Assembly (NCBI GenBank): GCA_025358555.1
Contig: JANYJD010000306.1
Location: 1-32,505, forward strand
From: Rhodoferax sp.
GTDB taxonomy: Bacteria > Pseudomonadota > Gammaproteobacteria > Burkholderiales > Burkholderiaceae_C
Direction of reading: 5' to 3'
Length of the DNA stretch: 32,505 nucleotides
A model generated the notes under the pieces. The model was not told the DNA's origin and ran no database searches. It worked only from the letters and a program-made list of their open reading frames with translations. A program made the translations under genes and the position numbers. Of the stretch, positions 14,192-17,422 are shown one piece after another (positions within the stretch are counted from its first letter, which is position 1; each line of letters starts with the position of its first letter).

Positions 14192-14233
14192 CAAACAAAA
14201 ACGCGGTGGCGGCTGGTGAAGACCAGCCACCGC
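14192..14233 (-). terminator. Rho-independent terminator for the phosphoribosyltransferase cassette
   Basis: Read on the - strand, GCGGTGGCTGGT-CTTC-ACCAGCC..CACCGC forms a long stem with a three-base bulge, followed by GTTTTTGTTT. It lies about 160 bp downstream of the small overlapping gene and points the right way to end its transcript. Confidence 0.7.
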
Positions 14234-14245
14234 TTCAGCGGTTTA
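14214..14245 (+). repeat. Left member of a 32-bp imperfect direct repeat
   Basis: It starts TGGTGAAGACCAGCCACC and ends GCGGTTTA. It matches 15412-15443 at 29 of 32 positions by my count, and the two enclose the phosphoribosyltransferase cassette. It partly overlaps the terminator stem. Confidence 0.75.
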
Positions 14246-14389
14246 GCCCAGCGTTTCCCTGATGGGCGCTCAAGATGTCTAAAGCGATGCATCCATAGAT
14301 GCAAAACGTCGTTGCCAATCACAATCCACCTCGGCGATTCTCGGCATCAAATACGTTGAGTTGCAAAAGTAGTCGCTTGGTGTCAATCG

Positions 14390-14599
14390 CTATCCTGCCA
14401 CCTGCACTTTGTGAGTGGACGCATGTGTGATCGTGGCGAACGCTTGCTCAGCTAATTCCTGTTTGCTGCGAATCAGCAATTCGATTTCAGATGATGTCAG
14501 CCGTCTCAGTTCTGGCGAGGTACCTAGCCTCTGATTCAGTAAGCGCGTCGAAGGGGTGAGCGAATCTTTCGATCCACCAACTTTCAAGGTCTGTTCCAT
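14390..14599 (-). CDS. Small protein overlapping the phosphoribosyltransferase gene, function unknown
   Basis: This 69-residue protein begins at ATG 14599 inside the 3' end of the upstream gene and overlaps it by 113 bp in another frame. GAGG lies seven bases before the ATG, which supports real translation. The sequence looks protein-like: RLLNQRLGTSPELRRLTSSE followed by IELLIRSKQELAEQAFATI, giving two predicted helices with a charged surface. I cannot name a family with confidence. The tight link suggests it works with the phosphoribosyltransferase or is its regulator, which is inference. Confidence 0.6.
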   Translation of the reverse strand: MEQTLKVGGSKDSLTPSTRLLNQRLGTSPELRRLTSSEIELLIRSKQELAEQAFATITHASTHKVQVAG

Positions 14600-15179
14600 G
14601 TTTGAGCCTCAGTTCAGATAAGCGTTCGAGGGACAGGGTGAGTTTTGCGGAGTGGGGTTTGCCTGTCAAGGATACCGCAGCAAGTACTTTTCCACCGCTC
14701 GACTCGATGTAGCCTTTCAAATTAGCTAACGTGCCACCCATGCCCACAAAGTCGTCAACCAGCACGTATTCACAACCCGGCTGAATCACACCCGTAAATT
14801 CAGCCTGCCGAGCCAAGCGAGAGAATCCATCTGCGCCCGTATGAGCGACTACGTTGACTTGCGCTACGACGATATCGTGCGGCCAGCCTGTGGCTTTGCT
14901 GATCTCTACTGCAAGGGCCTCTGGAATGGCATTGATGCCTTCGCGCTCGTAGGCATGGGCGCTCACCAGCGTAGGACGATGCCCACGGAGTAAATCAGCT
15001 AAGCGCTGATTTTGCTCCCCACTCATCGTGTCGTTGACCAAGATGGTTGCTGAAAAGCCATTGCCCGCCTTTGCAGCTTGATAGGCAGGGTGCTGCTTCA
15101 CAGCCGATTCGTTGGCATGAATGAGCACCTGAGGGAAACTGTTCCACGCTGTGCGAGGGGGTTGGGGAATCGCGCTCAT
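14487..15179 (-). CDS. Phosphoribosyltransferase-family protein
   Basis: A type I phosphoribosyltransferase fold is shown by the PRPP loop EYVLVDDFVGMGGTLANLKG in the middle third: two acidic residues, then GMGGT. Upstream, PTLVSAHAYEREGINAIPEA and the later GGKVLAAVSLTGKP strand also fit. Which base or acceptor it uses is unknown; it lacks the extended patterns of Apt, Hpt, Upp or PyrE that I would recognise. The start is uncertain: ATG 15179 (MSAIPQPPRTAWNSFPQ), 15188 and 15215 are all possible and none has a clear ribosome site. A sampled 60-bp line has about 52 % GC, lower than the flanking genes, which together with the bordering direct repeats suggests acquisition. Proteins of this kind occur on mobile islands. 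Confidence 0.82.
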   Translation of the reverse strand: MSAIPQPPRTAWNSFPQVLIHANESAVKQHPAYQAAKAGNGFSATILVNDTMSGEQNQRLADLLRGHRPTLVSAHAYEREGINAIPEALAVEISKATGWPHDIVVAQVNVVAHTGADGFSRLARQAEFTGVIQPGCEYVLVDDFVGMGGTLANLKGYIESSGGKVLAAVSLTGKPHSAKLTLSLERLSELRLKHGTDLESWWIERFAHPFDALTESEARYLARTETADII

Positions 15180-15411
15180 TGTTCTCATTTTCACACGCAA
15201 ATATTCCAGACACATTGCAGCATCCGGCGCAAACCATTGGGCGGTTGAACTGAAAGGTTTTGGGTTTTACACCGCTGGTATACCCTGCATGATCGAATAC
15301 CAACGGTGCGTCATGAGGCGAAAGCCCCAAAAATTTTCAGGGCGACTGCACCACGGGCAATCTCCTCACGGGCCTTCAGCTCCGGCTGTTTGGCAGGCAC
15401 CTTGACCGTCA

Positions 15412-15443
15412 TGGTGAAGACCAGCCACCACGTCCGCGGTTTA
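15412..15443 (+). repeat. Right member of the 32-bp imperfect direct repeat
   Basis: It starts TGGTGAAGACCAGCCACC and ends GCGGTTTA, with differences only in the six central bases relative to 14214-14245. Unlike the left copy it lacks the partner arm for a terminator hairpin. Confidence 0.75.
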
Positions 15444-15487: not shown

Positions 15488-17422
15488 TCAAGCCACAGAC
15501 TTCAGCACCGGCCGCGCAGTCTCCGCGGGCACCGGGAAGCGCTTTTCGATGGAGGCTTGAACGCCCGCCGCGTCCAGCCCCTGCATGGCCATCAGCTTGG
15601 CGGGGTCGCCGTGTTCGATGAAGGTATCGGGCAAGCCCAGTTGCAGGAGGGGCCGAAGCACGCCAGCAGCCGCCAGCGCCTCTGCAACTGCACTGCCCGC
15701 GCCGCCCATGATGCAGGCATCTTCCACAGTGACGAGGGATTCATGCTCTGCCGCCACTTGCAGCAGCAGCGCAATATCCAGCGGTTTGGCCCAGCGCATG
15801 TTGACCACGGTGGCGTTGAGTATTTCTGCCGCTTGCAGCGCCGGGTAAAGCAGCGTGCCAAACGCAAAAATGGCAATGCGCGGACTGTGCGCGGGCACGT
15901 GTGCAATGGCCTGGCGGCGAATCTCGCCCTTGCCATAAGGCAGCGCCTCCAGCCCCGCCGACATGGCGGTGCCGACGCCTGCGCCGCGCGGGTAGCGCAC
16001 GGCCACCGGGTGATTTTGTGCAAACGCGCTGGACAGCAGCCCACGGCATTCGGATTCGTCCGCCGGGCAGGCAATGCCCATATTGGGGATGCATCGCAGG
16101 TAGGCAATGTCATAGGCGCCAGCGTGGGTGGCCCCATCGGCCCCGACCAGACCCGCACGGTCCAGCGCAAACACTACAGGCAGGTTTTGAATCGCCACGT
16201 CGTGGATCAACTGGTCATAGGCGCGCTGCAAAAAGGTGGAGTAAATCGCCACCACAGGCTTCAAACCCTCACAAGCCAGGCCTGCCGCAAACGTGACCGC
16301 GTGCTGCTCGGCAATGCCCACGTCAAAGTAGCGCTTGGGGAAGCGCTGCTCAAACTCGACCATGCCCGAGCCTTCGCGCATGGCGGGAGTGATGCCGACC
16401 ATGCGCGCATCGGCAGCGGCCATGTCGCACAGCCACTGGCCAAACACCTGGGTGAACGTGGCCTTGGGTGGCACCACGGGCTTGAGCAGCCCCACGGCCA
16501 GGTCAAACTTGCCGGGGCCGTGGTAGGTGACCGGGTCTGCCTCAGCGCGCTTGTAGCCCTGCCCTTTTTTGGTGACAACGTGCAGGAACTGCCGGCCCTG
16601 CAGGTGCTTGATATTCTCCAGCGTGGGGATGAGGGAATCCAGGTCGTGGCCGTCAATCGGGCCAATGTAGTTGAAGCCGAATTTCTCGAACAGCGTGGCA
16701 GGCACGACCATGCCCTTGGCGTGTTCTTCAAAGCGCTTTGCCAGTTCAAACAGCGGCGGCGCGCCTTTGAGCACGGTCTTGCCGACGTTTTTGGCGGCGG
16801 CGTAAAAATGCCCGCTCATGAGCTGCGCCAGGTAGCGGTTGAGCGCACCCACGGGCGGGCTGATGCTCATGTCGTTGTCGTTCAGGATGACCAGCAGGTT
16901 GCAGTCGGCCACGCCGCCGTTGTTGAGCGCCTCAATCGCCATGCCGGCCGTCATCGCGCCATCGCCAATGATGGCCACCGCACGCCTGTCTTCGCCCTTG
17001 ATTTTGGACGCCATCGCCATGCCCAAAGCGGCCGAGATGGAGGTGCTGGAATGCGCCGTGCCAAAGGCGTCAAACTCGCTCTCGCCGCGCTGGGGAAAGC
17101 CGCTCAAACCGCCCAGCTGACGCAGCGAGCCCATGCGGTCGCGCCGTCCGGTCAAAATCTTGTGCGGATAGGTTTGATGGCCCACATCCCAGACCAGCCG
17201 GTCATGCGGTGTGTTGAAAACGTAGTGCAGCGCGACTGTCAGCTCCACCGTGCCGAGGTTGGAGCTTAAGTGCCCGCCGGTTTTTGACACGGTGTCCAGC
17301 AAATAGGCCCGCAACTCGGCGCTGAGCTGGCCGAGCTGGGCGCGGGGCAGATGCCGCAAATCTGCCGGATCGTTGATGGTTTGCAGCAGCGGGTACGGCG
17401 TGGCTGAGAGGGTATTTGGCAT
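15488..17422 (-). CDS. dxs: 1-deoxy-D-xylulose-5-phosphate synthase
   Basis: The 644-residue enzyme condenses pyruvate and glyceraldehyde-3-phosphate with thiamine diphosphate, the first step of the MEP isoprenoid pathway. It shows the full Dxs set: [32 protein letters not shown], the ThDP-binding [18 protein letters not shown] with [21 protein letters not shown], and in the pyrimidine domain [17 protein letters not shown] and [15 protein letters not shown]. Length is normal. It is the last gene of xseB-ispA-dxs. A repeat copy lies one base before the ATG, and I see no Shine-Dalgarno sequence, so initiation is likely weak or depends on an unusual leader. Confidence 0.97.

Follow-up and report, generated by a model that had tools for sequence, protein, structure and literature searches.

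A phosphoribosyltransferase gene and an overlapping ORF between dxs and a TRAP gene

We analysed a 32,505-nucleotide stretch of a Rhodoferax sp. assembly (GCA_025358555.1, contig JANYJD010000306.1), referred to below as the window, in which an insert at 14214-15443 sits between dxs and the gene for a tripartite ATP-independent periplasmic (TRAP) solute-binding protein. The insert carries a predicted phosphoribosyltransferase (PRTase) gene, here called P, and a small open reading frame (ORF), here called S, that begins inside P in another frame and ends beyond it. Conserved double coding of the overlap and mobility of the pair, P-S, are both well supported by the comparisons with homologous loci described here. 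The features of the locus are as follows.

14487..15179, minus strand: P, type I phosphoribosyltransferase of the mobile-element group, 230 amino acids (aa), from ORF and homology
14390..14599, minus strand: S, 69-aa ORF, +1 relative to P, whose last 113 bp it overlaps; predicted protein
14487..14599, minus strand: dual-coding region of 113 bp, P residues 194 to end
14607..14610, minus strand: GAGG, putative ribosome-binding site of S, 7 nt ahead of the S ATG, built from P codons including Arg191 (AGG)
14246..15443, no strand: inferred inserted unit, 1198 bp counting one repeat copy
14214..14245, no strand: direct repeat, TRAP-side copy; on the minus strand a hairpin and then T-rich DNA, fold z-score -2.7
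15412..15443, no strand: direct repeat, dxs-side copy; half of the hairpin missing, fold z-score -0.5
ends at 15488, minus strand: dxs, the dxs-side neighbour of the insert
start about 13872, minus strand: TRAP solute-binding gene, the other neighbour

An earlier, sequence-only reading of this DNA had pointed to a lower-GC segment bounded by direct repeats matching at 29/32 positions, with a phosphoribosyltransferase gene and a 69-residue gene that overlaps it by 113 bp in another frame and has its own GAGG. All of these are present: the GC content is 0.51-0.55 over the insert segment against about 0.62 in the surroundings, and the 32-bp repeats are 91% identical. The ORF of P spans 15215 to 14487; its homologues favour a start at 15179, and a longer reading from 15215 is possible.

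The end of P codes in two frames

In the first homologues examined, the terminal part of P encoded the same protein in its +1 frame. A genome-wide scan then added 80 further P loci and 5 viral contigs, the hosts being Burkholderiales, Rhodocyclales, Geobacter/Desulfuromonadales, cyanobacteria, Acidobacteria, Latescibacterota, Verrucomicrobia and others. S is present in almost all of about 110 homologous loci, which come from several phyla, phages and plasmids (including RA3 and RK2-like kfrC), with the consensus M..NLKTGG..S.TPSTALLNQKLGTSPAPRMLTPSEIELLRQSKQEIA. The few exceptions are a TAG in S in two giant polyvalent ORFs (L027 and L029), one broken copy (L014), contig ends and two Oxalobacteraceae copies (L158 and L168, see below). 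The sequence-only reading had asked for co-occurrence of the two proteins and had named homologues lacking a conserved second frame as its refutation; these were sought and the opposite was found, the same +1 overlap with both proteins recurring in almost every homologue.

Synonymous constraint was assessed in 74 representatives of <85% identity as the ratio of observed to expected synonymous-codon identity in P, and again in a stricter set of 22 sequences of <60% identity with bootstrap intervals. In the larger set, the ratio was 1.03-1.15 along residues 11-170, where codon variability is roughly that expected from codon usage, and reached 1.42, 1.56, 1.69 and 2.33 in the four final bins, those spanning the overlap. 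The stricter set gave 1.52 (bootstrap 1.44-1.65) for residues 194-230 versus 1.03-1.07 for residues 10-160. The signal was seen separately in the solo, KfrC/plasmid-polyvalent, phage-fused and Csb2-inserted groups. The +1 frame was open in 72/74 sequences versus 16 expected, and the +2 frame, used as a control, in 0/74 versus 9 expected. The start signals are also retained: the S ATG is aligned in 56 of the 74, and the Arg191 codon is AGG or AGA in 52/67 homologues, compared with 121/661 Arg codons elsewhere in P. The core motif of S was found in 15 of 21 diverse sequences (0.21 expected). We also considered S as the leftover of a longer fused protein or as a frameshift product. Most loci, however, have a stop immediately ahead of the S ATG and retain the ribosome-binding codons, so that independent initiation of S is the simpler explanation.

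Two side observations concern the overlap. P residues 160-193, upstream of the S start, show a modest rise in synonymous conservation (1.18), perhaps a regulatory or translation-coupling signal. In two Oxalobacteraceae loci (L158 and L168), S variants have a few dozen residues inserted between the overlapping part and the LTPSEI-type core.

S had no match in Pfam, NCBIfam or PADLOC. Its structure model, a single long helix (residues 36-65), is of low confidence and is not used as support. The S core, LTPxEIEALRxxMxxAxxWAxAELxRRR, also occurs as small stand-alone ORFs on plasmids with no P nearby, standing directly after rep, resolvase, DUF2442 or mobilisation genes, and a profile comparison of these proteins with S gave a probability of 96.4 (E 1.4e-9).

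L196-L204 and L191: small stand-alone proteins with the S core, on plasmids or contigs that lack P in the neighbourhood; most have no annotation, and many overlap rep, resolvase or toxin-antitoxin genes or come directly after them

An antitoxin-like N-terminus, considered for the S-like protein of L191, was unsupported by NCBIfam or Pfam.

P belongs to a PRTase group of mobile elements

By sequence, P is a PRTase of the mobile-element/KfrC N-terminal group, for which binding of phosphoribosyl pyrophosphate (PRPP) and transferase activity are predicted. It matches phrog_22413 with E=4.3e-55 and has the fold and the DD-x(n)-GGT PRPP loop of the mobile-element type I PRTases (phrog_22413 / polyvalent PRTase). 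The catalytic D142-D143 is followed by GGT, and D142, D143, G148, G149 and T150 are invariant in 58 sequences. Matches to PRTase families in Pfam and NCBIfam are weak, PF00156 being sub-threshold, and a weak match to NF041412 (XopC/Rsp1239 type III effector family, E 4e-6) lies far under the family cut-off. The AlphaFold model of P has a predicted local distance difference test score (pLDDT) of 91.7, and its Foldseek matches include ComF, APRT, OPRT and ShosT (8zvc, E 3.4e-4).

P is homologous over about 220 aa to many plasmid phosphoribosyltransferases and to the N-terminal domain of plasmid KfrC, with 31-35% identity to the latter. The S frame (+1) is present inside kfrC, and in RA3 it runs to kfrC codon 260. 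Another relative of P forms the end of a protein of Moraxella phage Mcat8 that is annotated as a coat protein (L008:1969-3708, PRTase at the C-terminus). In Mcat5 the same region is split into small ORFs with the S frame kept.

The pair behaves as a small mobile unit

The gap between dxs and the TRAP gene is 109-320 nt in 11/12 syntenic relatives and about 1.6 kb in the window genome. As the two genes are neighbours with a short gap in the relatives, the insert is absent there. P was found in 4/101 relatives, the window genome counted among the 4, which fits a mobile gene. In a base-by-base look for a single-copy empty site, the intergenic DNA of the relatives was too diverged to align. The window repeat is not a dispersed element, since its 18-bp core matches exactly only at these two sites in the 4.75-Mb genome. 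Within the unit 14246..15443 there is no integrase or transposase. The TRAP-side repeat copy leads into a strong hairpin and the dxs-side copy has lost half of it, so that the unit looks as if it had entered the terminator region of dxs. The TRAP-side hairpin with its T-rich tail is terminator-like and probably the terminator of dxs, although a consensus terminator scan did not call it.

We then searched for flanking direct repeats (score at least 44) with P-S as the centre, using 241 positions in the same contigs as controls. Repeats of 30-159 bp were found in 9/77 testable P-S loci versus 1/241 controls. In L115, a 138-bp repeat lies at the 3' end of gyrB. In L136 (5799-6927), P-S has gone in at the 3' end of a tRNA, and the 94-bp duplication there takes in the terminator as well; this unit, too, has no integrase, and the tRNA and its terminator were recognised by eye from the sequence. 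The targets in L142 and L118 are the 5' end of an asparagine synthase gene (asnB) and a PemK-like toxin gene, respectively, and L107 and L113 have flanking repeats too. In L106, an exact 127-bp repeat copy at the contig start may be an assembly effect. The adjacency of dxs and the TRAP gene in relatives, together with the long direct repeats around other copies, bears out the earlier suggestion of an inserted two-gene unit. We conclude that P-S behaves as a minimal mobile unit, resembling restriction-modification units that insert with long, variable target duplications; that it moves by an integrase acting in trans is equally possible.

P-S enters restriction-modification and CRISPR operons

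Among 115 proteins encoded next to P-S were 11 Csb1/Cas7g, 9 type III res and 8 DNA methylases. In about 7 loci, P-S lies antisense between res and mod of a type III restriction-modification (R-M) system, and one copy adjoins HsdR of a type I R-M system. In 12 representative sequences, P lies in frame inside Csb2 (Cas_GSU0054) of a type I-G clustered regularly interspaced short palindromic repeats (CRISPR) system, with Csb2 split into two separate PF09609 stretches around P, between the Csb1 and Cas3 genes, and the S frame intact.

L097:3003-9017, also L094, L098, L102 and L103: type III R-M insertions, antisense to res/mod
L131:5284-7656, L148:5326-7686, L160:5329-7674 and nine other representatives: Csb2 insertions

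Other P-S copies stand beside housekeeping genes (dxs, gyrB, thiolase, hypD). Beyond what the earlier reading had noticed, P is akin to the toxic KfrC domain, the second frame is retained even within kfrC, and R-M and CRISPR operons are among the places of insertion.

A toxin-antidote-like reading and its rivals

We favour, at a probability of about 50%, the reading that P-S is a minimal selfish mobile module of toxin-antidote-like character, with P toxic and S its modulator. P would be a phosphoribosyltransferase that uses PRPP and, left unrestrained, damages the cell, and S a small helical protein that has its own start within the P mRNA and restrains or neutralises P; production of S and its binding to P are predicted. 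Because S is written inside P, P would not be inheritable without its partner. The double coding, the fixed linkage and the pattern of insertion are shown by the comparisons above: copies of the pair have gone in at terminators and at the ends of genes and tRNAs, with long duplications of the target, form part of MuF-like proteins of phages and of plasmid KfrC, and have settled in host defence operons. We infer both the substrate of P and the mechanism by which P-S moves.

As in type II toxin-antitoxin systems, a small overlapping partner is constantly linked to the presumed toxic gene, toxicity having been published for the KfrC homologue only (PMC8124265). Overproduced RA3 KfrC slows the growth of E. 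coli and its DDT->AAA variant does not; KfrC1-249 could not be cloned stably, and under tac only with rearrangement (PMC8124265). This clone ends 11 codons ahead of the S stop, which is compatible with S restraining P and also with the loss of the C-terminal domain.

Several observations weigh against the toxin-antidote-like reading. Full-length kfrC is toxic when overproduced with the S frame still inside it, and 68/77 P-S loci have no flanking repeat at the threshold used. S is kept in 9 loci with P broken by stops or frameshifts, but target sizes alone predict this retention, and we therefore dropped it as evidence for an antidote. Moreover, S-like proteins occur on small plasmids without P, so S is not solely an antidote of P, unless these are orphan antidotes.

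The main rival, a possible explanation, is that S is no antidote at all. It would instead serve P as a subunit, as an activator or by localising it, or would regulate plasmids and mobile elements in general, acting with resolvases and with Rep and Mob genes as well. The fixed P-S linkage fits an obligate partner equally well, and the stand-alone S-like proteins after rep, resolvase, DUF2442 and mobilisation genes on P-less plasmids point to a wider role. These P-less proteins, however, would be left unexplained by an obligate subunit of P alone, and the KfrC toxicity assays, made without considering S, do not favour activation.

A wider form of the toxin-antidote-like reading, which we regard as doubtful, is that P-S represents an unrecognised toxin-antidote family. 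The antidote would be encoded inside the toxin gene, the pair would spread as a 1-kb unit, enter the backbone of broad-host-range plasmids as kfrC and, in R-M and CRISPR I-G operons, act as a device for addiction or guarding, and the S-like proteins of small plasmids would be orphan antidotes against it.

It is unlikely that P-S serves the host as a defence or conflict effector, with P embedded in R-M and CRISPR operons as an enzyme of abortive or guard type, set free once the guarded system comes under attack. The copies between res and mod, inside Csb2 and next to HsdR are consistent with such a role, for which the CRISPR-guarding toxin-antitoxin pair CreTA is a known precedent. Most loci, however, lie beside unrelated housekeeping genes, the defence-associated copies may stem from a few insertions, and P is also found on phages and plasmids.

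Finally, that the second frame is a by-product of P conservation, codon bias or an RNA element is scarcely credible: half of S lies over conserved P residues and is in part dictated by them (e.g. GG from Trp-Trp), yet the synonymous constraint is confined to the overlap and, with codon resampling, rules out a chance overlap, the +2 control frame is not open, the ATG and ribosome-binding codons are aligned, and S is conserved beyond the P stop with a core homologous to stand-alone proteins.

P-S suggests how the PRTase domains found in phages and plasmids might be kept in check, an answer that can be tested directly. A protein-coding gene family conserved across phyla appears to be unannotated because it overlaps a PRTase gene, including inside kfrC. 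We found no description of S in the literature on PRTase toxin-antitoxin systems, overlapping genes and Csb2. The PRTase family is an established one. Neither the overlapping gene and its wide occurrence nor the insertions into Csb2 and type III R-M loci were found in the papers searched.

Comparison with known systems

ShosT is the PRTase toxin of the defence pair ShosTA, whose antitoxin is DprA-like. P shares the PRTase fold with it, ShosT (8zvc) being among the Foldseek matches, whereas S has 69 aa and no family match and is encoded inside the putative toxin gene.

Iyer et al. (2017, PMC5512222) describe a mobile-element PRTase group, including polyvalent and MuF fusions, whose role is called enigmatic. 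P belongs to this same group, whose members are solo or fused and carry the DD motif. Overlap is mentioned nowhere in that paper, and its PRTase section has no description of S, of direct repeats, or of insertions into Csb2 and type III R-M systems.

KfrC of IncU RA3 and IncP-1 RK2-like plasmids has at its N-terminus a PRTase domain homologous to the window P. It also has a C-terminal dimerisation/partner-binding domain, whereas the window P stops at the PRTase domain, and it is linked to kfrA/kfrB and the plasmid backbone, whereas the window P lies between dxs and the TRAP gene. No mention of an overlapping gene came up in a term search of the KfrC paper (PMC8124265); the existing truncation, clone and deletion data for RA3 and RK2-like kfrC were interpreted without knowing that S was also hit.

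R-M units are small and addictive and move without a transposase, leaving long, variable target duplications in the order of 100 bp (PMC3874152, PMC3031569). The P-S unit itself has no restriction or methylation genes. It shares with R-M units the long target duplication (9/77 loci versus 1/241 controls) and the lack of a transposase, and adds to such elements one of very small size, with a link to R-M and CRISPR operons.
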